Source: a virus
IMG/VR virus record: IMGVR_UViG_3300024267_000020
Span: 1-27,907 of that record
Length of the DNA stretch: 27,907 nt
Strand: one strand, 5' to 3'
The notes under the pieces were generated by a model. It ran no database searches and had not been told where the DNA came from. It was given only the letters and a program-made list of their open reading frames with translations. Position 1 is the first letter of the stretch; every line of letters starts with the position of its first letter. Made by a program: the position numbers and the translations under genes. Shown piece after piece: positions 4,861 to 25,400 of the stretch.

Positions 4861-6288
4861 ATGGATAAATTTACTAGAAATAAATGGCAAAAGGGCTACA
4901 GATCACACCAATACGGTGACCCAACATATATTAGCTTCTTTTTAATGTTTGATTGGGGAGAATCTCCTCTTTTTAACGGAGTAGCCGAAGATTTTTTAAG
5001 AAATGTTTTATTCGAACCGGAAAGAGCTGATAAACTTGTAAGGTTTACAAAACTTCTACAAAAATTGAATAGAGAAATGCCTTGGTATTTTTATGAAATA
5101 GAGGGTTTTGAAAATGTTTATAAATTTGAAAATTTAAAAGAAGCATATAGAGGTACTGACGACGGTATAAAAATAAAAACCATAGAAACTTTAGATTTAA
5201 TGGTTGCTGGTTTAATGGATATGTATAGAGATGTTGCATTTGATATGGATAGGTGGTGCGAAGTTTTACCACATAATATGACTTATTTTAGTCTTACCAT
5301 AATTGTTTCAGAATGTAGAACTATTGCTAATAGAAAGTTAAATACTAATAAAAATCAAACTAATGATTTTCAAAATGAAGAAAGAGAGTATACTGTAATA
5401 AATCAAGATATTGCATATAGTGCAAAATCACATTTTGCTGTTAAATTAGGAAAATGTTCTTTTCATACAGATTCAGGAGTTGGTATATTTGGAGGATTAT
5501 CGACTTCAGAGCCTAAAATTGCAGAAAATCAAATTCAAATTAAGTATCAAACAGTAAAGTATTACAGTAAACAATACTTGAATGAATTTGAGGGTACTTT
5601 AGCTGAAAATAAACTATCTGAAGTTGGAAGTAATACTCCTAATACTGCAGGAAATGATGAAAATACTACAACGCCTTCAAGTGAGGGTGATAAAAGAAGT
5701 GGCAAAGAAGAATCTAATACTAAATCTAATAATGATACGACCAATGTTACTTTTACCGGTAAAACTGTAGAAAAGGTTGAAGGTTTTGAACAGCAGCCGC
5801 TTGAAGAAGTTTTAAGTACCGAAAGAATAGACGGTTTTGAACAGCAGCCACTTGAAGAAGTTTTAAGTACCGAAAGAATAGACGGTTTTGGAGAAAATCA
5901 AAACACAGAAAACCCCATTGAATTTGGTAGTCCAGGAAGATTAGGAGAAAACTTACTTGCTGATGCATTAGCAGAACTTGAAGGTGCTGGACAGCGTTTA
6001 AAACAAGATACTTTAGCAAAACTTCTTTTAGGAAACGTATATGGTTTAAATGCTGCTTCTAATATACAAGATGCTCTTGCTGCTGGAAGTTTAAACGGAC
6101 TTAGAAATTTAGCAGTAAAAACTGCACAGGCATTAACAGACGATTCATCTCAAAATTCTAATATCGGTGCAAGTGTTGGAGATAATGTATTTCCGGAATC
6201 AATTCCTGAAGTTCCACTTAAACCTACTAACAATATTCAATCACCTCCACCTGAAAAGGATTCTAATTTAGGAAACATACATGGATAA
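4861..6288 (+). CDS. Tail-tube-fold baseplate protein with repeat-bearing extension
   Basis: A 475-aa protein. The N-terminal ~240 residues look folded: 'YGDPTYISFFLMFDW' (18-32), a helical middle, 'NMTYFSLTIIVSECRTI' (about 139-155), then after an inserted loop 'KSHFAVKLGKCSFHTDSG', 'LSTSEPKIAENQIQIKYQ'. The strand-rich 'F.l..C.FD.dS' plus 'N.IKIKY' pattern is what I associate with tube-like proteins (T4 gp19/gp54 class), so it may be a second tube-junction component. The rest (245-475) is polar and low-complexity: Asn/Thr/Ser-rich, a perfect 17-aa tandem duplication (308-341), an Ala/Leu helical segment (about 355-415) and a Pro-rich end. ATAAATA lies at 4852-4858, two bases before the start. 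The last 8 bases overlap the next gene. Structural role likely, precise identity uncertain. Confidence 0.45.
   Translation: MDKFTRNKWQKGYRSHQYGDPTYISFFLMFDWGESPLFNGVAEDFLRNVLFEPERADKLVRFTKLLQKLNREMPWYFYEIEGFENVYKFENLKEAYRGTDDGIKIKTIETLDLMVAGLMDMYRDVAFDMDRWCEVLPHNMTYFSLTIIVSECRTIANRKLNTNKNQTNDFQNEEREYTVINQDIAYSAKSHFAVKLGKCSFHTDSGVGIFGGLSTSEPKIAENQIQIKYQTVKYYSKQYLNEFEGTLAENKLSEVGSNTPNTAGNDENTTTPSSEGDKRSGKEESNTKSNNDTTNVTFTGKTVEKVEGFEQQPLEEVLSTERIDGFEQQPLEEVLSTERIDGFGENQNTENPIEFGSPGRLGENLLADALAELEGAGQRLKQDTLAKLLLGNVYGLNAASNIQDALAAGSLNGLRNLAVKTAQALTDDSSQNSNIGASVGDNVFPESIPEVPLKPTNNIQSPPPEKDSNLGNIHG
5782..5883 (+). repeat. 51-bp tandem duplication, two copies
   Basis: Copies at 5782-5832 and 5833-5883 differ at a single base (CCG versus CCA, synonymous proline codon). 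Each encodes GFEQQPLEEVLSTERID, so the protein copies are identical. A third unit begins (GF) and then diverges. The reading frame is kept. Confidence 0.95.
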
Positions 6289-6445: not shown

Positions 6446-7129
6446 ATGGATTCTAAAGAATTAAATATAGATAATTTAAGAGATAGTCACTGGATAGGTG
6501 AGGTTGTAGATAATTCTGACCCTTTATTAGATGGTAGATGTAGAGTAAGGGTATTTGGAAAATTTGATAATATTCCTACAAGCTCTATTCCTTGGGCAAC
6601 GCCTTCAAATAGAAATACACCAGGAGCCCATGCAGTTCCTAGAGTTGGTGATATTGTTGCTATTAATTTTGATAATGGAGATATTTACCACCCTGAATAT
6701 ATTTACCATGTTAATCAAAATTCTGATTTTAAATCTGATATTTTATCAGAAAGTGGAGCTCCTCAAAATTGTATATCTTTAGTATATGATGCTGTCAGAA
6801 ATTTAAGAGCGTACTACAGTCCTGAAAAAGGATTCATAGTAACTACAGGGGCCGGTGCTGAAGAATCTCCTTTAATTCAACTAGACTCTGAAAATAGAAT
6901 TTATCTTTTTACGGAAAATGAAGTTGAAGTAAAAGCCCCAAGGGTATATGTAAACAGTCCTAATATAGAATTAGGAGAAGCTGCTGCAGAACAAGTAATT
7001 AAAGGAAATACATTCCAAGCGCTGTTTAATGCACATACACATGGTAGTGCATCACCAGGAACGCCAACAACACCTCCAATTGTATTATTAAATGGAGCAG
7101 AATTAAGTCAAGTCACTAAAACACAATAG
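6446..7129 (+). CDS. Central spike, gp5/gpV-like OB-fold protein without lysozyme
   Basis: A 227-aa protein. Residues about 16-93 are an OB-fold as in T4 gp5 N-terminus and P2 gpV: 'WIGEVVDNSDPLLDGRCRVRVFG', 'IPWATPS', 'VPRVGDIVAINFDNGD', then 'PEYIYHV'. The middle (about 94-190) is strand-rich with beta-helix-like repeats. The end has 'HTHG' (His197, His199) followed by 'SASPGTPTTPP', as in gpV-type spike tips where an HxH pair from three chains binds iron. T4 gp5 carries a lysozyme domain between OB-fold and beta-helix; it is absent here and the length is close to P2 gpV (211 aa). The protein would trimerise beneath the gp27-like hub and pierce the outer membrane. GATAAATA lies 4 bases before the ATG, and there is no SD. 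Confidence 0.8.
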   Translation: MDSKELNIDNLRDSHWIGEVVDNSDPLLDGRCRVRVFGKFDNIPTSSIPWATPSNRNTPGAHAVPRVGDIVAINFDNGDIYHPEYIYHVNQNSDFKSDILSESGAPQNCISLVYDAVRNLRAYYSPEKGFIVTTGAGAEESPLIQLDSENRIYLFTENEVEVKAPRVYVNSPNIELGEAAAEQVIKGNTFQALFNAHTHGSASPGTPTTPPIVLLNGAELSQVTKTQ

Positions 7130-7610: not shown

Positions 7611-7618
7611 TTAAAAGA

Positions 7619-7627
7619 ATATATAAT
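7619..7627 (+). promoter_or_regulatory. Candidate phage promoter core ATATATAAT
   Basis: The core ends 21 bases before the S1-like gene start at 7649, the same spacing as the copy at 533-541. It is flanked by a weak AATTA/TAATT symmetry. It would give the S1-like gene its own transcript in the middle of the baseplate block. Confidence 0.4.
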
Positions 7628-7648: not shown

Positions 7649-8854
7649 ATGATTAACAAATCTGACGCCGATTGGTTTGATGCCGACGGTAACTTTGATT
7701 GGGATGGCTATGAAGCCACTTGCCCATCAGCAATTAGGAAGGGAAATCCTCACATTAAAACAAACGATCCAAAACACAAAGTATTTTGTAGAGAAAGCTA
7801 CGCACAGGAGCTTTATGATAAGTACAACAAACATGATGAAGACTCAAATACTTTGTCAAAAGTTGAACACGGCGTTCAATACACCGGTACTGTTTATTCT
7901 ACTAAAGGCAGTACATCTACTGTCGATATTGGATATAGACAACTTGTCTTTATTAATCTACAAAAAGAAGACCCTGCATTTAGAGAATTAGGAAAAACAA
8001 TAGGCTCTGAAGTAGACGTTACAATTACTTCTGACCCTTTTGATGATTCAGTATCTCTATACGGTTCATTAACTGAAGGAGCTAGAAAAAAGACATTCAC
8101 TGAAATGCAAGCTGCTATCGAAACACAAGATACGGCATGGAGTGGTAATGTTACTAAAATGATGCAAGAAGCAGGATATATTGTTCGTGTAAATGGAATT
8201 GACTGCTTTATGCCGGGTAGTTTAGCTGGTATTAATAAACTACATGATTTCTCTAGTATTATAGACACTGACATGTATGTTGTTCCAGTAAGTTTTTCTA
8301 AAGAAAAAGGAACTATTGTAGTTTCACATAGAGCTTATTTAAAGACTATGATTCCAGGTACTATTGATAAACTTAAAGAAAATTTAACTCAAGAAATTAC
8401 TGGTACCGTTACAGGTTCAGCCAAGTATGGAGTATTCTGTGAATTTAATGAATGCTTAACTGGTATGATTCATGTAAATGATTTAGATTCTGATTTGTTA
8501 GTAAGACATAAGAATAGAGAAATAGTTCCAGGAGAAGAGATTACATTTAGAATCAAAGATATTATTTCAAATGATAAAATAACTCTTACTCAAAAAGATG
8601 AGGTTGCTGCAAATCCTTGGTTAAAAATCAATGAGAAGTTTAAACCTAATTCTGATGTTTTAGCAACTGTAAAATCATGTAAAGATTATGGATTGTTTAT
8701 TGAAATAGCGGAAGGTATTGTTGGCTTATTACATGTAAGTGAATTTGAAAATACAGAAGCTTTAAAATCGTATAAACCTAAGCATAAAATAAACGTTACA
8801 ATAACTAGAATAGAGGAAGATACAAAGAAAGTTTTCTTAAAACTTGCTGAGTAA
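7649..8854 (+). CDS. Ribosomal protein S1-like RNA-binding protein, four S1 domains
   Basis: A 401-aa protein with four consecutive S1 (OB-fold RNA-binding) domains. Residues about 74-140 are a degenerate first domain ('GTVYS', 'VDIGYRQL', 'IGSEVDVTI'). Residues about 163-232 read 'WSGNVTKMMQEAGYIVRVNG', 'FMPGSLA', 'TIVVSHRAYLK', closely following domain 2 of bacterial bS1, where E. coli has 'GGFTVELNGIRAFLPGSLV' and 'NVVVSRRAV' as I recall. Residues about 246-316 ('GTVTGSAKYGVFCEF', 'TGMIHVNDL') and 333-400 ('ATVKSCKDYGLFIEI', 'VGLLHVSEF') are canonical S1 domains. In cellular bS1 domains 1-2 dock on the ribosome and later domains hold mRNA, so both halves seem kept. The N-terminus (DADGNFDWDGYEA) resembles Bacteroidota bS1. 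No nuclease or other catalytic domain is fused. It is not a baseplate protein despite its location. Likely cytoplasmic, acting on translation, mRNA stability or transcription. The S1-domain call is very secure; true bS1 function is inferred. Confidence 0.88.
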   Translation: MINKSDADWFDADGNFDWDGYEATCPSAIRKGNPHIKTNDPKHKVFCRESYAQELYDKYNKHDEDSNTLSKVEHGVQYTGTVYSTKGSTSTVDIGYRQLVFINLQKEDPAFRELGKTIGSEVDVTITSDPFDDSVSLYGSLTEGARKKTFTEMQAAIETQDTAWSGNVTKMMQEAGYIVRVNGIDCFMPGSLAGINKLHDFSSIIDTDMYVVPVSFSKEKGTIVVSHRAYLKTMIPGTIDKLKENLTQEITGTVTGSAKYGVFCEFNECLTGMIHVNDLDSDLLVRHKNREIVPGEEITFRIKDIISNDKITLTQKDEVAANPWLKINEKFKPNSDVLATVKSCKDYGLFIEIAEGIVGLLHVSEFENTEALKSYKPKHKINVTITRIEEDTKKVFLKLAE

Positions 8855-8911: not shown

Positions 8912-10225
8912 ATGCTCACGTATCAAATTATTAATGACGATAGAAAAGAAGACATTCTAGAAATGGGGCTAGTTGGAGTAGAATTCGAATTTTACTCCAA
9001 CAAGTCTTTAGAAGATACTAGAAAAGAAATAGCATCTCTTTTAGGTAAAAAGGTTAGGTTAGAAGATAAAGCGCATAGTGACTTCCAACCAACTAAAAAA
9101 GAGTTTAAATTAGAACCTGACATGTCAGGTGGTAAAGGCTTGGTCGAATTAGTTACTGGAGCCATACCTTATAACGATGCTAGAAAGATGATTATCGACA
9201 TGTTAGCATGGATCGATAAGAATGGATATACTACTGAAAAGTCATCAATACACTTAAATGTAAGTTTTGATTCTGACAAAGTAGAGTACCCTGAATTTAT
9301 TCAAAGAATGGATGCTTTAAAGTTTATATTAGACTTTAACGAGGCTGAAGTTTACAAAATGTTTCCAAATAGAGAAAATAGTGTATACGCAAAATCAATT
9401 AAGTGGGTAGTACCTAAATTAGAATCTACTTATTTTAATGGACAGCATATTAACCCAATGTCATTTGACTTTCCTAATGAAAAGTATTATGGAGTAAACT
9501 TTGAAAAATTACAAAAAGGATATTTAGAGTTTAGATATATTGGCGGTAAAGATTATCAAAAGAAGACTTCAAATATTCTTTATTTATTAGAAAGATTTTT
9601 ATTTCAATTATGGAATACTGCAAAAAGTAAATCATACACTCAATTAAATCTTTTAGAATTAAAGAGAATATTGAATAAAAACAATCCATATATTTCAGTA
9701 CTTAAAGACCATACAAGGTTTAAAGAGTTTTTTCCAGAAATAGAGTTAACCGTTGATTTAAAGAAATCTGATAAAATCATATCTCTTTATTGGGACAAGA
9801 TTAAGTTTAGTGTAGTTAAGTTAATCAGCCATGGCTCTTTGTCGAAAGGTTATATTAACTATGATAGCGACATTGGAAGAGTTCAGGTTAAAGAAGGTGA
9901 ACTATCGAATTGTTTCGATTTGAATAATTACGACTTTATAGACTGCAAGATATCTGGAACTTTTTCTTTTTGTGATATATTTAGATCTGAAATAAAAGAT
10001 GCTAATATGTTAAGGTGTAACCTTTATCAAAACACTATGGTTTCAGGTTCTAAAGTAGAATCTTGTTATGTTAGTAGAGAATGTGAACTTACAAACTGTT
10101 ATGTTTTCCAATGGGATTCAATATTTAAAGGAAGAATGATTGGTGGTATATTTAGACATGGCAAAATAAGCAAGTCTGCAGAGTTTGATAAAACTGAAAT
10201 AATAAATAGTAAAAAAATAGATTAA
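8912..10225 (+). CDS. Amidoligase-like (COOH-NH2 ligase) enzyme fused to Cys-rich beta-solenoid-like tail
   Basis: A 437-aa protein. Residues about 18-216 carry the ordered motifs of the glutamate-cysteine-ligase/glutamine-synthetase-fold amidoligases (Amidoligase_2 type): 'GVEFEFYS' (22-29; the E-x-E metal pair), 'LEPDMSGGKGLVELVTGAIP' (67-86; Asp70, Glu79), 'SSIHLNVSF' (111-119; His114, with Asn instead of the second His), and 'GYLEFRYIGGKDY' (203-215; Glu206, Arg208, the EFR motif that contacts ATP in this fold). Such enzymes join carboxyl and amino groups using ATP. A helical stretch follows (about 217-310). Residues 328-430 alternate short strands and turns with seven Cys (334, 345, 354, 369, 385, 391, 396) and look like a pentapeptide- or hexapeptide-type solenoid, though without a strict repeat. 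The substrate is unknown: candidates are a virion protein, peptidoglycan or a host peptide. It is followed two bases later by the 280-aa gene, so the two are probably co-translated. Confidence 0.6.
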   Translation: MLTYQIINDDRKEDILEMGLVGVEFEFYSNKSLEDTRKEIASLLGKKVRLEDKAHSDFQPTKKEFKLEPDMSGGKGLVELVTGAIPYNDARKMIIDMLAWIDKNGYTTEKSSIHLNVSFDSDKVEYPEFIQRMDALKFILDFNEAEVYKMFPNRENSVYAKSIKWVVPKLESTYFNGQHINPMSFDFPNEKYYGVNFEKLQKGYLEFRYIGGKDYQKKTSNILYLLERFLFQLWNTAKSKSYTQLNLLELKRILNKNNPYISVLKDHTRFKEFFPEIELTVDLKKSDKIISLYWDKIKFSVVKLISHGSLSKGYINYDSDIGRVQVKEGELSNCFDLNNYDFIDCKISGTFSFCDIFRSEIKDANMLRCNLYQNTMVSGSKVESCYVSRECELTNCYVFQWDSIFKGRMIGGIFRHGKISKSAEFDKTEIINSKKID

Positions 10226-11457: not shown

Positions 11458-13314
11458 ATGGCTGAATTAAAATTTTTAGAAAAAGCAAGAGTTAATGCTA
11501 AGCAAATATATGGCGATGCTTCTAATTATATTGGAAGAGTCTATGGAAGAGCTGGTGACTTTTTTACAACAGCTTCACCATTTGCTCAAATATTAGAAGT
11601 AATGTCTGAGATGAATGAAATGCTTATGTTCTATATAGAAGACTCTACAGTAGAGCAAAACATTTACACTGCACAGCAGCCTGAATCTATATATGGACTT
11701 GCTAGACTTGCCGGTCATGACCCAACAAGAGGGTTTGCAGCAACTGGAGAAATTAGGTTTAGATGGAAACCAGGTGCTAAAGATGATATTGCTGGAAACA
11801 ATTTAATTATACCTGTAAATACTAAAATTACATTTGAAAATAATGGTCTTACTTATTTCTTAAGAACGCAAAAAGATGAGTTTCTTTTACCTAAATCTTC
11901 AAATGGCTGGGTTCAAGCAAGTATAATGCAGGGCGAATTAGAATCTCAAACAGTTACTGGAACTGGAGAAAAGATGCAAAGTTTTAATATTAAAGTACCC
12001 GGAACAACAGACCACAACTATGTTAAAGTATCTGTAAATGGCGAATTATGGACTAAATTTGATAGTCTATATGAAATGAGACCTACAGATAAAGGAGTTT
12101 TGATTAAAAGCGGAATTAGTGGTGGAATTGATATTTACTTTGGAACTGGTAATTTTGGTTCTATACCTCAAAATGGAGCAGCAATAGAAATACAATATTT
12201 AAAATGTGATGGAGCTGCAGGAAACTTAAATCAATCAGGTGATTTAAGTTTTAACTGGATTGAAGAGGGTTCTGATTCAACAGGAGAAGATTATGACTTA
12301 AATGAACTACTAGATTCTGAAGTATTGATTACTCCTTTTATGGGAGCAGATCCAGAGTCTACTGAATTTACAAAAATGCTAACACCAATGGCTAGCAAAA
12401 GTTATGTTTTGTCAAATCCTGACAACTATGAATATTTCTTATCTAAATACGGTCAATTTAGTTATTTAGATGCATATAATACAACAGAAGACGGCTATTT
12501 AGATGATGACAACGTTATTTATATTTTTGCTATTCCAGATTTAGAAAAAAGATTATTGTCTGGTACTGATTATTTTTCAGTTCCGCAAGAAGAATTCTTT
12601 TTCAGCAAAGAAGAAACTGATAGATTTATTGGTGTTATAGAGGATAGTGGTCAACAAATGGTTACAAGTGAAGCTGTATTCGTAGAGCCTAAAGCTATTA
12701 AATATAGAATGGATATATCTATAAGATGGTTTGAAGGATTTAAGCAAGAAGATATTTTTAATGACATCAGAGCTGCGGTTAGTAATTACCTTATAAAAAT
12801 TACAAGAAGGGATAAACTTCCTAAAAGTGATATCGTTGCCTTAATCGAGGATGTTGAAGGTGTTGATGCCGTAAATGTTCAATTTGTTTCAAGTGTTGAA
12901 GAAGAGGCTAGAAGAAATGGATACTACACTTATAAAAAGGTTACAGTTACCCCCACAACGCCTGAACTCCTCGGCAACGACGGAGACCAAAAAAGATTAG
13001 TGTTCTTTAAAAGAACAGAAGAAATTAAAAAAATAACGCTTGACCAGCCAGACATGTTAATTCCTGTTTCAGGAGGAGATAAGGCTATAGAAGATTGGTA
13101 CAATAAAATAGGTTTAGATAAGTATGGTGACATTATTTTAGATAAAGATGAAGTTGCTGTATTTAGAGGAAATTGGGAAGATAGAGATGGGAATCTTGTA
13201 AAAGATACTCCAGCTATTGGTGAAATGAGTTCACTTTCAATTTATTTTGATAATCCACCAGTTCCTAGAACTATTTATAGTAGAATTCAAGCAGGAAATA
13301 GAAGAGCATTGTAA
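11458..13314 (+). CDS. 6: Baseplate wedge protein gp6-like (gpJ family)
   Basis: A 618-aa protein close to T4 gp6 (660 aa). The N-terminus (about 20-95) is helical and ends in 'TAQQPESIYGLARLAGHDPT', the typical 'a..es...lA...G..p' entry of gpJ/gp6 proteins. This is followed by 'GEIRFRW', 'IIPVNTKITFENNGLTYFLR' (about 98-136). Large beta domains follow, then the J-like closing part 'DKLPKSDIVALIEDVEGVDA' with 'VNVQFVSS' (about 451-480). gp6 dimers form the iris-like ring of the baseplate with gp7 and gp25. AATAAATA lies 5 bases before the ATG. Codons for about residues 497-510 are unusually G+C-rich and hold a GNRA-type hairpin (see 12967-12985). The stop overlaps the next start as TAATG. Confidence 0.85.
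   Translation: MAELKFLEKARVNAKQIYGDASNYIGRVYGRAGDFFTTASPFAQILEVMSEMNEMLMFYIEDSTVEQNIYTAQQPESIYGLARLAGHDPTRGFAATGEIRFRWKPGAKDDIAGNNLIIPVNTKITFENNGLTYFLRTQKDEFLLPKSSNGWVQASIMQGELESQTVTGTGEKMQSFNIKVPGTTDHNYVKVSVNGELWTKFDSLYEMRPTDKGVLIKSGISGGIDIYFGTGNFGSIPQNGAAIEIQYLKCDGAAGNLNQSGDLSFNWIEEGSDSTGEDYDLNELLDSEVLITPFMGADPESTEFTKMLTPMASKSYVLSNPDNYEYFLSKYGQFSYLDAYNTTEDGYLDDDNVIYIFAIPDLEKRLLSGTDYFSVPQEEFFFSKEETDRFIGVIEDSGQQMVTSEAVFVEPKAIKYRMDISIRWFEGFKQEDIFNDIRAAVSNYLIKITRRDKLPKSDIVALIEDVEGVDAVNVQFVSSVEEEARRNGYYTYKKVTVTPTTPELLGNDGDQKRLVFFKRTEEIKKITLDQPDMLIPVSGGDKAIEDWYNKIGLDKYGDIILDKDEVAVFRGNWEDRDGNLVKDTPAIGEMSSLSIYFDNPPVPRTIYSRIQAGNRRAL
12967..12985 (+). other. GNRA-capped hairpin inside the gp6-like gene
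   Basis: CTCCTCG-GCAA-CGA(C)GGAG folds into a seven-pair, G+C-rich stem with one bulged C (12981) and a GCAA tetraloop, which belongs to the stable GNRA class. It sits in a short patch using CCC, CTC, CTC, GGC, AAC and GAC codons, quite unlike the AT-ending codons around it. It may be a real mRNA structure or only a side effect of a transferred patch. Confidence 0.4.
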
Positions 13315-18859: not shown

Positions 18860-21800
18860 ATGGACACACAAAACTCATTAAATAGCGTTATTAGACAGTT
18901 CACTCAAATGAACACAAATGCTTTAGAAACTTTTGAAAGAATTAATCAAGCAGTAACAACTCAAGATGAATCAATAACAGTTTCCATAGATTTATTTGGT
19001 ACTCCAGACGAGGATGGTAATACTACAATAAAGACTTATCAAATACCTTCTTTTGGTTTCTTAAATAAAGAAATGAAAAGACTTGAAAACAATATCAAAG
19101 CGCTTAGTGGTGTTGGTACTTCAAATGCAACAGTTCAATTACCTGATGGCAGCTTTCAAAGAGTTATCACTAAAAAACTAAAGACACCTGCAAATGATTT
19201 AGAGGTTATTGATTTACCAACTTCTTTTGAAACTACAGATAATGACTTTTTTGAAGATTTTCTTAACCCTTTATTAACTGTAAAATTTAATGTTAGTGGT
19301 CAAATTGACACTGATACTGAAAGGGTTTTAGTTAAAAGATTTATATTTCCAGCTGAAGATGATTTTGCACCTTCTTATTTTGATGACAATTACAAAAATT
19401 TAGAAGAGTTAGATTATGAAACTGCTCTTGGTGATATTATTTCAGATGGTGTAAATATAACAATTGATGAGCAAGTAAGAGATTTACCTTTTAAATCTAC
19501 TCAATATTATGGTGGGTTTGATGTTATCAATGTAGAAAATGTATCTAGAACTTTTCAAGTTGATGGAGAAGATGTTACTAGAACCGTAAAACTATTTACA
19601 CTTAATAAATTAACATATAATGATGGGGAAAAGTCACTAAAAGATACCGAGCTTTTAAGTATAGGAGATAATCTTCTGGTTAATTCTGGTAACAATAGCA
19701 CAAGGTATGAGATAACTAACATTTATTCAGGTACAAGTCAACTGGAGTTAAAGCTGATAGAAGGATTTGACTCTGTATCTATTGGTGCTGATGTTTTAAA
19801 AATTTATAAAAATTTAGAAGATTCAGTAAGCCTAAGTATTAATGTAGGTTTTAATGAAAGACAAATTGTGTTCTTTAAAGCAATTGACCCTTCTTCTAAA
19901 ATTATAGCAGAAAACTGGTCACCTGGTGTTGGGTTCTATTCAAACGAATTAACAATTGAAGAGGTTGATGGAAGTACTTCAACTTTAGCAGCATATTATA
20001 GAAATAATGTAGCTGATTTCGGACAATTTATTAAATCACTTAAAGAAGATTTCATTCCACCTGCAACTGTAGGAATTGTTCCAGATCCAGTTGAATTATT
20101 ACCAGGTAATTTTTCAGTAGTTCAAGTAAATACTCACTTAACATCTAATGATGCATTCGATTCTATCAAAAAACTATCAAGTGATAAAGTTACTGTTTTA
20201 GAATCAATTAAAAAATTAGATGATACTATTTCAAATAAAAGATCCGAGATAGCAACTAAGAAATACACTTCTAAAATAGAGCAAAATAAAGATAAAAATA
20301 ATCTTAACTCTCTAATTGAAAAAAGAAGTGGAGAAGCAAAACTTTATACTTCAATAGTAAATCAAATTCAAAGTATTAGTACTGACCAAGGTATAGCTGA
20401 TATCAGTGCAAAATATAGAGTTAGAGGTTTTTGGGCTATTCCAGAAGCAAAAGATAACGAAGACACTTTACCACAAGAAATAGTTCAATTTAAGATTCAA
20501 TATAGATATGTTTCATCTAGCGGAAAAACTTCTAACATAGAGCAAATTCCTTTTGAAACAAATGGACAAACTACAACAGCAAGTTTTTCTAATTGGAATC
20601 AATATGAAACCCCTGTTAGAAAAAGACTTAGAGATTCTGTAACAGGTAAATATGTTTGGGTTTCTGAATCAGTTGAAGATGGACAAGAAATAAACTTTAA
20701 CCAATTAGATATTCCAATTAATTTAGGAGAAAGTGTAGAAATAAGAATAAAATCTATTTCTGAAGCAGGATATCCTTCTAACCCTTTAGAATCTGATTGG
20801 AGTGAAATTACTAAAATTGATTTTCCAGAAGGTCTTTTAGATACTACAAATATAGTTAATTTAATTGAAGAAAATTCTAAAGAAACTACATTTGTAAAAT
20901 TATTAGATGAATTAGAATCTAAAGGTTTTTATGAGCATATTGCACAATCTGTTATTGCTAACGAAAAATACTTTGCGCATGGTGCTAAAGATATTAATTC
21001 TGGATTCTTATCTGGAGAGCAAACACCAATAACATTATTTGATAAATTAATAGACCTTCAAAAAGAAATAGAAACTCTTAGAGGAGTTATAGAAAATGCA
21101 GAAGGAGAATTAACAGTTACTTTAGTTGATGAAGAAGGAGCTACTACTCAGATAGAAGCTAACCAAACAGCAAAAGTATTTGCTGGATATTATGTTGATG
21201 AGGTTGCAGACTTAAATATTAAAAAAGGTCATATTGTTACTAAGACTTTTAAACTTTTATTAGAAAATACAAAAGCGACAGATTTAGAATTAGTTGCTAG
21301 AGTTATTGGTAAAAGATCCGATGCAGTTTATCATTCTTCTTCTACTGGAACTGAAGTTGATTTTGAAATGGGAACAAATGATTTTGCTGTTACACCATCA
21401 CCAACACTAGCATCAAGAGTTGAAAATGATACTTATTATACAGTAGAGGCTAAATATGACTTAGTGCCAATACAATATCAAAATATGTCAAGTGCCGAGG
21501 CAGCTGCTGAAATTTTCAATAATGCATCGCCTTTTCAATCAGCACAGAGAAAAGGTCAATTTATTTATAGCAGATATATGGATGTTTCTGGTGAAAACCC
21601 ACTTTATGCAGTTGCTCCTTTAGATTATCTTAATGGAACAGACCTTACTTTAACTAATAACTCAAATAGATTCGAATACTTTGGTATTGCAGGAGCTGGT
21701 TCTGTAGGAGCACCAAGTTCTGACTTTATATGGGACGGTTCAACTGGAGTTGTAACACTTGGGTCACTAACATCCGGGGATTATGATGATAGTCTTTATG

Positions 21801-22467: not shown

Positions 22468-25400
22468 ATGCCTAGAAGTATTCGAACGGATATTGAAGTT
22501 AATAATGGATCTGATTTTATATCTAGACCCATTCTAAGAACAAACCCAAAACTTTCTACTAATGTTAAGATTGTAGTAGAGGATGATGAATTATTCTTAG
22601 AAAGCTTTGATGCATCTGAACAGCTATCTGATTTTAAATATAAGAAGAAGAGAGTCAGCAAAAATGGCAAGTATTCTTATGACCTTTCTAGATTTTGGAT
22701 AAAAAACTCAACACCTTTAGAGTTAGCATTTAATGTAAAAAGAGAGTACAGTGATTTTTCTATACTTGATGATTTTTCTAAGCAGTTTGAAGAAACTTAT
22801 AATTATGGAACTAGTTCTAACTTTTCTAAACTATATGATTCAGAGTTTAAAATATTTGCACCTATATGGTTAGATAAAAAAGTACCTTCTAAGTTTTTAA
22901 TTTTTAGAATAAAAGACCCTTTAGATGCAGACTCCATAAATTATTCTAATAATGCAGATAGAATAAATGACATCATGACTAATGCTACTCTAATAAAAAC
23001 TATAGATTTATCAGAAGACAGTAACATAGGTACATACGTAAGAAATCACGTTAATTCCGAAGATTTTCCAAAATCGCCATTAACAGTTTCGTTTGAACAA
23101 GATGAAAAAACTTTATATAATGGAATTGATTTAGAGAAAGGTGGGTTTGTAAGTAAGGGTGAATATCAATATAGAGATACTTTAGATACTGATAAACCAG
23201 TTATAGAATACAATGATTTCATTACTTCAGGTTTTTCTAGAAATGGTATTGCATGTGCAAATCTACTCAATCTTGAGTTTATGTTTAATGATGACGAAGC
23301 TGAAGAGTATTCTATCAATAGATATTTTGGTTTATATGTCGACTCTCATGATATAGGAGAAGGTAAAGTAAAAAGATTAATAAATGATACTGTTACTTTT
23401 TCAGAAATAAGCCATAACTTAGACTTTACAACTAATGCAGATTATTGGTCACTTCCTTATTCTGAATTTTTTAAAGATAAAGCAATGTTGGGCTGGGTAA
23501 AAACAGCAAGAGGATATCATAATGTTAAAAATGGAGTTGATTGGGATATATCTAAACTAGAAATAAAAATAGACTCTAACAATCAAGATTATTCTGACTT
23601 TTTTGGAATCAAGAGAACTGATAGAAATGTAGAGTCTTTTATAAATGATTCAGCAGAAGGAGATTTCCTAAAATTAAAAGTTGTTGGAACTCCAAATCAC
23701 AACGATAATTTTACTCTTGTAAATTTAAAGAAACAGTCTTTTTCTATATTTATAAATAAAAATACAGCTGGAGAAATAATAACAATTGAAGATAATCTTT
23801 CAAATTCTTTTACAGCAGTTTCAGGAGCTACTTCTGAAGAGACTTCTCTTAATATTATAGCAGCATGGCCTTCAATAGGAACTTTTGCAAAATATTCTTT
23901 ATTGCAAAAATATAATTCTAAAGATAATATATGGTATATAGATGTATTTGAAGATGTTGTTAGTATGGAGGAAGACCATAGTTTTATAAGTTTAAATAAT
24001 ACTCCTACATTTTTATCGATACAAAGAAATGTTTATCCAGTAAATACTGCAGCAAATACATTTTACGCAGATAACACGATATTAAAGGCTAGAACAAATG
24101 TTAAGTCTTTTTCTAATTTAGGAACTAATAAGAATATTGCTAATGCTATTTCAGAAGTTATAACTGAAAATACTAGATTTGAAACTTTAATAGATGGTGA
24201 AACAATATACGTTAAGTCACCTATAAAAGGATATAAATTAAATAATTTTGGATTCTTTTTTACAGATTCAAATGCTCCATTCTTAGAAATAGAATTTGGA
24301 GAAGACACTTCTAATATTTTAAATATTGGTTCTAGCTTTTTAAGTACCAAGACTGCATATTATTTACAGGGTGGAAACGAAAAAAACAAATCTATTTATA
24401 TTAATTTAGATGATGAAGACCAAGTTTCAATCGGAGAGTATTTCATAGATGGTTCAGGAAACTACAATAAAGTTATAGACAAAGTAACAGATTCTAGAAC
24501 GATTAATTCCGAATATAAGAAGATTATTTTAGAACATAAGATTAAAAATAAACTTTCTGGTGTTTTAAGCATTTATTCGGAATTTAAACTTTCTTGGGGT
24601 TATTTTAGTGGATATGATATCTATGATTTTAACTTTGACTTCTTTGATAATTCAAATTCTGACTTGAAAGAATTAAATAGAGATAGAACTTCTGGATATC
24701 CTGGTAGTATACCTTCTCCTAAAACTGCATTCTCAGAAGAGAATTTAGAAGACTTATATTTAGATCCAGAAAAATATTATGCAAATCTTATACCTTTATT
24801 AAAACAAGAATCTACTGAAGACGTTGAAAATGAAACTATAGAAAATGAACTTGACAGGTTAAAAGAGAATTTTACAACTGAATTTGCTACCAAATCTAGA
24901 GTTGTTCCTAGTATTAATAAATGGTCATTAATAAACTCAACTAACGTTAGAGAAAATCCTTACTACTTAAATGTTTCAGAAACTTTTGGCGAAACTAACT
25001 TTTCACCAAGTTTAGAAAGTTTAGAAAGAGATCCGAAAAAAATGACACATGAATGGTTTTATTTAGATAAAAGACCAGACTACTATATGACACCTTTAGA
25101 AGAATTTAGTTATTTAGAGAATGCGAGTGATTTACCTATAGAATTTGATGATTTTAAAAGTATAGATTTTGATTATTTTAAATCTTACTTTTTATTGCAA
25201 GGTAATTTAGCCAATAGATGGAGTCATTTACCTAAAAAGAGAAAATATACTTTTATAGAAGAGGGTACTAAAGAAAATTTCGCGTCTACTATTTTTAAAG
25301 GTTTGAAATTCTCTATGAAATCTAGAAAGAAAGCAGAAAATTCAATAACTAAAGAATTTATTAAATCTACTGAGTTTAATGGTTATAGATTTACAGCTTT

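Follow-up and report, generated by a model that had tools for sequence, protein, structure and literature searches.

A bS1-type protein of a marine, probably very large phage and its possible role in steering host ribosomes

The window analysed here (the whole stretch of DNA, a 27.9-kb fragment of a virus record with contractile-tail genes aboard) encodes a protein that is bS1-type, in that its first two S1 domains, OB1 and OB2, are of the kinds found as domains 1 and 2 (D1 and D2) of cellular bS1. Judged from its sequence, this phage S1 probably helps the virus to steer host ribosomes to its own messages. We propose, with a probability of roughly 0.56, that it represents a bS1-type protein of very large Bacteroidota phages, which docks at the exit side of the 30S subunit and captures phage mRNAs there. 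Its contacts with the host 30S subunit would be made by the N-terminal segment together with OB1, on the side where mRNA exits, and there it would either replace the host bS1 or sit beside it; OB3 and OB4 would capture the A-rich mRNAs of the phage, which lack Shine-Dalgarno (SD) sequences; and, in many of these phages, a phage bS21 would be swapped in at the adjoining site. That the protein binds ribosomes and prefers phage mRNA is inferred, as are its timing and the genome size of the window's phage, the last of these because the marine contigs are incomplete (205 kb or less). The features of the locus are collected in Table 1.

Table 1. Features at and around the S1 gene (positions in the window; residues in the S1 protein)
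Feature	Position	Strand	Basis or remark
gpV/gp5-OB-like baseplate protein	6446..7129	+	profile matches, neighbourhood
Promoter-like AATATATAA (RATATATAA), 31 nt before the S1 start	7618..7626	+	
Viral bS1-type protein, four S1/OB domains	7649..8854	+	profiles, structure model, Foldseek, domain test
N-terminal FDWDGYEA motif, residues 15–22, common to Bacteroidota bS1	7691..7714	+	
Predicted helix ESYAQELYDK, residues 49–58, candidate uS2-docking helix	7793..7822	+	AlphaFold2 model, low pLDDT
OB1, residues 73–142, bS1 domain-1 type; Arg97 at the position of E. coli Lys43	7865..8074	+	
OB2, residues 159–229, bS1 domain-2 type; Tyr177/Phe187 at the positions of E. coli Phe120/Phe130	8123..8335	+	
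OB3, residues 245–317, RNA-binding-type S1 domain	8381..8599	+	motifs in 59/59 marine S1
OB4, residues 330–400, RNA-binding-type S1 domain	8636..8848	+	motifs in 59/59 marine S1
Amidoligase-like protein (PF12224, 27.1 bits)	8912..10225	+	first window homologue after S1 in the marine clade
gp6-like baseplate wedge protein, lineage marker	11458..13314	+	profile matches

Domain architecture of the viral S1 protein

The S1 open reading frame starts with ATG, is free of internal stops and encodes 401 amino acids. The Pfam S1 family matches the product in two stretches (3.2e-19; best match, residues 332–397), and the AlphaFold2 model shows four OB folds together with helices (mean pLDDT 78.7, pTM 0.52, with pLDDT mostly below 50 at residues 24–54). 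The four S1 domains described in an earlier note are thus present in the model, and the strings that it quoted, FDWDGYEA (residues 15–22), VNGIDCFMPGSLA and VVSHRAYLK, were all found in the translation. A series of four falls within the range expected of a bS1-type protein, the S1 domain being repeated ‘4 to 6 times’ in bS1 (PMC6375957). For comparison, we assembled 59 distinct full-length marine S1 proteins from two marine scans, the window's own among them. Every one of these carries the OB3 motifs [KR][YF]G[VI]F and TGMIH and the OB4 motifs [DE]YG[LI]F and GLLH[VI]SE. One marine contig, recorded twice (L063, in its 6006 region, and L237), has an S1 gene interrupted by an in-frame stop after the N-terminal helix and ahead of OB1, which is either a sequencing error or a broken copy. 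In one subclade of S1 (L027–L081; for example, L044:9860–9920), an N-terminal extension of 30–40 residues opens with a basic K[RK]xR[ILVA] motif. Such a start was found in 34 of the 59 full-length S1 proteins as against two other proteins, both gp6-like, among 841 open reading frames of at least 100 amino acids; the extension may perhaps serve RNA or ribosome binding.

Eight rpsA models of NCBIfam match the window's protein with E-values of 4.6e-41 to 1e-30, most of them colinearly over approximately residues 55–399 (about 340 amino acids). The scores of 107–141 bits lie far below the cut-offs of 368–918 bits (TIGR00717, 134.8 versus 577; the best model, NF004952, 140.8 versus 524), and we therefore file the protein as a bS1-type viral family and not as an rpsA equivalog. 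Its best PDB match by sequence is E. coli bS1 (1e-37), and the top Foldseek match in the PDB is 9gut_B, the bS1 of a 30S mRNA delivery complex (E 6.5e-27). VIA-align, too, ranks bS1 highest, pairing residues 48–401 of the model with residues 1–349 of the bS1 chain 9guv_B (Z 14.2, rmsd 14.4, 326 residues aligned). It also returns many single-OB matches with Z of about 10–11 (Tex, eIF2alpha, Spt6 and NusA), which were set aside as evidence of membership since they reflect generic S1 folds.

The domains of 33 viral rows were scored against profiles of bS1 D1–D6, each made from 40 cellular sequences or fewer, and against the non-ribosomal S1 profiles of PNPase (five sequences), RNase R (two) and Tex (one), the last two of which are thin. 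As the earlier note had claimed for the window's protein, the first two domains follow domains 1 and 2 of bS1: the best profile for OB1 was D1 in 31 of the 33 rows (D5 in two), and that for OB2 was D2 in 31 rows (D1 in two). In the window's protein, OB1 scored 17.5 bits with D1 versus 2.2 with the next model, and OB2 scored 44.7 bits with D2 versus 10.3. Grouping of these domains with non-ribosomal S1 proteins was not seen against the PNPase, RNase R and Tex profiles, none of which was favoured by any OB1 or OB2 of the 33 rows. Pfam and NCBIfam detected, over their cut-offs, none of the catalytic or accessory domains typical of PNPase, RNase R and Tex in the 401 residues. Of the 31 rows in which OB4 was scored, 21 had D4 as the best profile, followed by D5 and D6 (five each); OB3 gave a mixed outcome (D5 in 13 rows, D4 in eight, PNPase in seven and D6 in five).

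This resemblance of OB3 to generic S1 domains, with PNPase preferred in 7 of 33 rows, fits an alternative in which OB3 and OB4 hold phage mRNAs to protect, unfold or localise them off the ribosome, without the protein joining the 30S subunit. The invariance of the OB3 and OB4 signatures in all 59 marine proteins, while the docking helix goes unrecognised by profile (see below), points the same way, and Al-Shayeb et al. left action ‘on or off the ribosome’ open (PMC7162821). A free RNA binder, however, would need neither a D1- nor a D2-type domain, and OB1 and OB2 are still of these types and have not been swapped for generic S1 domains; nor would it need the basic OB1 residue that is conserved. 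We consider such off-ribosome binding unlikely, although it deserves serious weight.

Candidate docking residues and RNA pocket

D'Urso et al. (PMC10123108) named F5, Q7, F9, E10, K43 and F79 of E. coli bS1 as contacts with uS2, and K117, F120 and F130 as its OB2 mRNA pocket; OB1 of E. coli bS1 also contacts bS21. K43 lies in loop 2 of OB1 and enters a pocket of uS2. Its column holds Lys in all 42 bacterial-type rows and Arg in all 25 marine rows; of the eight huge-phage rows, six have Lys and two, both Lak, have Ser. Arg occupies this position in all 59 distinct marine proteins (53 by pattern, the other six by reading). In the OB2 pocket, the F130 column is Phe in every aligned row, including the 33 viral ones, and the F120 column is Tyr or Phe in 33/33 viral rows. 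Lys at the K117 column is found in 41 of the 42 bacterial-type rows, in none of the 25 marine rows and in two of the eight huge-phage rows. At the F9 column, Tyr or Phe occurs in 25/25 marine rows; the F5 column is a gap, and F79 is not conserved even among the bacterial rows.

Just before OB1, all 59 marine proteins have the helix motif YAQ..[YF][DN], and in the structural overlay by VIA-align the model from residue 48 onwards sits on bS1 from residue 1. A profile of the docking helix (13 columns, from 42 bacterial-type N-termini) was run against 33 viral N-termini, each compared with 2,000 shuffled versions of itself, and gave p values of 0.005–0.85, mostly at chance level, with scores that were mostly far under the bacterial ones. 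The E. coli docking helix, compared with six viral N-termini, gave p values of 0.03–0.87. Conservation of the docking helix by sequence was dropped in view of these mostly chance-level scans. Considering the residues and the model, docking of the phage S1 on the ribosome appears plausible. Against our proposal weigh the helix scans, the change at K117, the low model confidence at residues 24–54 and the two Lak rows without the basic residue, as do the six huge-phage rows without the FDW motif, the three huge S1 records without bS21 and the small effect of bS1 at rpsU described below.

A protein with D1/D2-type domains might also take the place of bS1 on the 30S subunit chiefly to block host initiation, rather than to recruit phage mRNA. 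Such a decoy would suit the four domains, as against six in E. coli bS1, and the loss of K117 from the OB2 pocket in the marine proteins aligned. A pure blocker could, however, do without the S1 signatures, which are invariant in OB3 and OB4, and without the OB2 aromatic pair, which is kept, and we hold this explanation to be improbable.

Taken as a whole, the window's protein resembles cellular bS1 (of E. coli and of Bacteroidota) in the colinear order of OB1–OB4, the D1/D2 types, a basic OB1 residue (Arg in place of Lys) and the OB2 aromatics, and Bacteroidota bS1 also in the N-terminal FDW motif. The viral proteins differ from cellular bS1 in having four and not six domains, in their identity of only about 24–30% among the matches listed and, in the marine proteins, in the lost K117.

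Viral lineage, hosts and genomic setting

We built a tree of 75 rows, 33 viral and 42 cellular-type. The viral rows comprise the window and 24 chosen marine loci, seven named huge-phage loci and L095; the cellular-type rows comprise 37 loci hand-picked from the 79 of L096–L174, together with L083, L084, L085, L093 and L265. L106, L137 and L157 were kept out for truncation or a wrong frame, and 39 further loci of that series went unused. A branch with 100/100 support sets all 33 viral rows apart from the cellular-type ones; branches are very long, and the phages were not nested within Bacteroidota in the unconstrained tree. In the AU test, a grouping of phages with Bacteroidota was not rejected (p 0.562), the constrained tree being even 1.96 log units better, and the test cannot place the source lineage of the viral S1. 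Cellular S1 matches were 24–30% identical, the best about 30% among the matches listed. The dN/dS of the window's S1 against its relatives L005, L006 and L007 was about 0.07–0.11, indicating purifying selection. The viral S1 is an old gene of this virus family and not a recent capture.

L095 (ONCO01000010.1) has a 35% identical S1 near its contig end and is labelled as an Erysipelotrichaceae bin; it groups with the viral S1, and is probably a phage contig misbinned into an Erysipelotrichaceae genome. Two other phage-labelled records were observed to carry S1 of a different kind. In a Microcystis phage record (L093, MW495066.1), the ribosomal genes stand in a bacterial-looking run of fliA, ispH, rpsA, rplU and rpmA, and the S1 encoded there falls, on a long branch, among the cellular-type rows and outside the viral family. 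A gut ‘Bacteriophage sp.’ scaffold (L094, MT835643.1) has a full-length Bacteroidales-type rpsA, which is probably host DNA.

In a search of the first 140 residues, the N-terminal motif in the strict form F[DN]W[DEN] was found in 53 of 58 Bacteroidota bS1 rows, as against none of 15 rows from other named phyla and one of five without a phylum; these rows are the best 80 of one genome scan and not a random sample. Among the 59 distinct marine phage S1 proteins, 34 have the strict form and all have the loose form F.W..[YFLI], while shuffled phage N-termini yielded the strict form in 42 of 29,500 cases. Of the eight huge-phage rows, two, both Lak, have the loose form and none has the strict one. 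The earlier note had likened FDWDGYEA to host-lineage bS1 and read it as a sign of capture from a Bacteroidota host. The likeness stands, as the motif is specific to Bacteroidota among the rows compared (53/58 versus 0/15), but a simple capture from the host, as written, is not supported: the viral clade is single and deep, cellular S1 is only about 24–30% identical among the matches listed, and the AU test places no origin. A recently captured Bacteroidota rpsA that is still in flux and has yet to acquire a fixed viral function could draw on the same motif and on the AU test, which does not reject phage plus Bacteroidota. Against it are the identity of at most about 30% to cellular S1 among the matches listed, the 100/100 support of the viral clade, the low dN/dS and the presence of S1 in 21/21 huge records of the lineage described next; this reading was already disfavoured and we give it hardly any credence.

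The gp6-like protein served as a marker of the phage lineage. Relatives of it (E <= 1e-20) were found in 31 public phage records, namely 15 of Lak phages (host given as Prevotella), six uncultured, five of Tenacibaculum, two of Chryseobacterium, one of Flavobacterium and two of phage PAU. The named hosts are all Bacteroidota, except that PAU is given as a phage of Sphingomonas. The window's virus is marine, probably very large and probably grows on Bacteroidota hosts.

Within this lineage, the window's S1 is homologous to that of the huge phages, and tblastn detected S1 in 21/21 records of at least 462 kb and in 0/10 of 168–235 kb. The records include duplicates: 15 of the 21 huge ones are Lak, and the ten smaller ones represent seven phages (pT24, PTm1, PTm5, MaF61, PAU, MA9V-1 and MA9V-2), all without S1. 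A profile search likewise found S1 in 5/5 huge records and in 0/5 smaller ones. With the records collapsed to about five lineages on each side, a count that is our own judgement, the size split gives a Fisher p of 0.008. In the Lak phages, gp6 requires read-through of two to six TAG codons per piece (L089 and L092). Shortening of the Lak S1 through TAG read-through was ruled out, as the two Lak S1 genes have no TAG and both end in TAA; they have truly lost OB4, and the basic OB1 residue as well.

The setting of the gene is fixed in the marine clade. Among window homologues, the amidoligase gene comes right after S1 in 80/80 loci of the first marine scan; with the two scans taken together, in which many contigs are counted twice, this holds for 153 of 155 loci (the two misses are L063/L237). 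A gpV-like gene lies upstream of S1 in all 131 loci that have 3.5 kb there. The C-terminal half of the amidoligase-like protein is repetitive, with the look of a beta-helix by eye. The window contains a further tail gene, for a weakly gp25-like protein. The 462-kb phage (L086) has a baseplate block with S1 as in the window, and in L090 and L091 the S1 gene lies just downstream of homologues of the window genes at 18860 and 22468, about 1–2 kb from the latter, which is structural-looking. In L087, L088, L089 and L092, no window homologue besides S1 shows up out to 12 kb from that gene, and S1 is more than 100 kb away from gp6 in six of the seven named huge phages. The S1 gene thus tracks the phage lineage, and the structural block only partly.

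The constant place between the gpV-like and amidoligase genes in the marine loci, the same block in L086 and the structural-looking neighbours in L090 and L091 would also be expected if the protein were a virion or baseplate component, possibly injected, and we weighted this explanation up, and our main reading down, for the S1 genes of L090 and L091 that lie beside homologues of window structural genes. It has to contend with the four of seven huge phages that lack any other window match near S1, with the distance from gp6 in six of the seven, with the ten smaller records (five of them re-tested) that have gp6 but no S1, and with domains that are bS1-type throughout. A virion role seems to us a slim chance.

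RATATATAA occurs at 532, 7618, 8885 and 22431 of the window, 27–37 nt before the open reading frame at 563, S1, the amidoligase gene and the open reading frame at 22468, respectively. Its count in the window alone (6 versus 4.0 expected) is not significant. The motif was picked after viewing the window and its position was tested on the relatives: in 15 of these, 25 of 41 sites of ATATATAA lie at −42 to −22 of an open reading frame, where 0.7 are expected. RATATATAA is probably a phage promoter element. A scan for sigma-70 promoters and terminators gave no excess over shuffles.

The bS21 partner, translation context and meaning

A bS21 gene (PF01165 over the cut-off) was found in 11 of 13 chosen partial marine S1 records, in all 11 at 17–30 kb upstream of S1 on the same strand; of the two records without it, one begins only 15.5 kb upstream of S1 and the other holds 23.5 kb. 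It was found in four of the seven named huge S1 records; the other three, two Lak phages and the phage of 462 kb, gave no match. In five smaller gp6-lineage records without S1, a search for bS21 was also negative. One marine contig (L260, contig G011) encodes an S1 identical to that of the window and, 17 kb upstream of it, at 4933–5130, a 65-residue Bacteroidota-type bS21. The open reading frames around this bS21 gene are, we presume, DnaJ-, PhoH- and RNase HII-like. With this bS21 as the tblastn query, 5 of 50,697 phage records matched, all of them S1 records, which are related phages and not independent events; the query reaches this type of bS21 only, other published phage bS21s (PMC6375957) being unmatched at E 1e-3. 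One aligned bS21 column is Tyr in 11 and His in one of 12 phage loci, Tyr in five and His in one of six Bacteroidota sequences, and Arg in one Nitrospirota sequence. This column appears to correspond to Tyr54 of F. johnsoniae bS21, a sequence that stood outside the alignment; the role of Tyr54 is treated in PMC9723584 and PMC9976891.

SD-like 4-mers precede 0/17 starts of the window genes, the starts being taken as the first ATGs of mechanical open reading frames. In the relatives, they precede 3.9% of 439 starts versus 4.4% in shuffled sequences, with no enrichment, as against 11.1% of 63 starts versus 5.9% for Bacteroidota loci and 26.9% of 26 starts versus 10.5% for Proteobacteria and Bdellovibrionota loci. 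Bacteroidota ribosomes do not recognise SD sequences, and addition of bS1 in F. johnsoniae gave about 2-fold more initiation on one SD-less mRNA, while it hardly affected initiation at rpsU (PMC9976891). As the hosts apparently belong to an SD-poor phylum, the association of S1 with missing SD sequences in huge phages, reported in PMC7162821, may partly reflect the host phylum.

Homologues of the window's S1 form a family, by tblastn, in uncultured records of 462–735 kb and in Lak phages. The LR huge-phage records among these matches are presumably those of Al-Shayeb et al. 2020. These authors proposed redirection of translation by the S1 of huge phages, noting that huge phages with S1 rarely have SD sequences and that confirming a true rpS1 is difficult (Al-Shayeb et al. 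2020, PMC7162821), and Mizuno et al. excluded the S1 domain as functionally ambiguous (PMC6375957). The marine clade differs from the huge-phage S1 by its fixed place in the baseplate block, its F.W..Y motif and, in one subclade, the basic N-terminal extension. The closest viral models in BFVD are A0A8D9CG03, a ‘30S ribosomal protein S1’ of an uncultured marine phage (E 4.4e-33, 30% identity over 375 columns), and A0A7S9STL2, an S1-motif protein of Virus NIOZ-UU157 (E 5.6e-39, 34% over 370 columns); both are further from the window's S1 than its IMG/VR relatives (51–100% identity). On the S1 of Virus NIOZ-UU157, the available literature text yielded one table entry, for another protein. The bS21 of Bacteroidota phages (Chen et al. 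2022, PMC9723584) represents the same proposed strategy in the same host phylum with another ribosomal protein, and those phages are described as being without further ribosomal protein genes. No report of an S1–bS21 pair in marine Bacteroidota phages was found in the literature covered, which excludes most subscription papers. Thus, huge-phage S1 and the idea of redirection (2020) are already known, and viral relatives are labelled ‘30S ribosomal protein S1’ in databases; the present analysis adds the identity of the domains, a viral family that is single and deep, the genome-size split, the bS21 pairing and the fixed marine locus.

More tentatively, at less than even odds, bS1-type S1 and bS21 would form a kit of very large Bacteroidota phages that remodels the mRNA exit site of the 30S subunit, giving phage-specialised ribosomes for SD-less mRNAs; S1 would mark the giant-genome branch, as it was not found in the 168–235 kb relatives, and its gain may go together with gigantism. 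The domain test, the viral clade, the bS21 partner and the Bacteroidota motif make the question of phage S1 a testable claim, in bacteria that select their mRNAs without SD recognition (PMC9976891).
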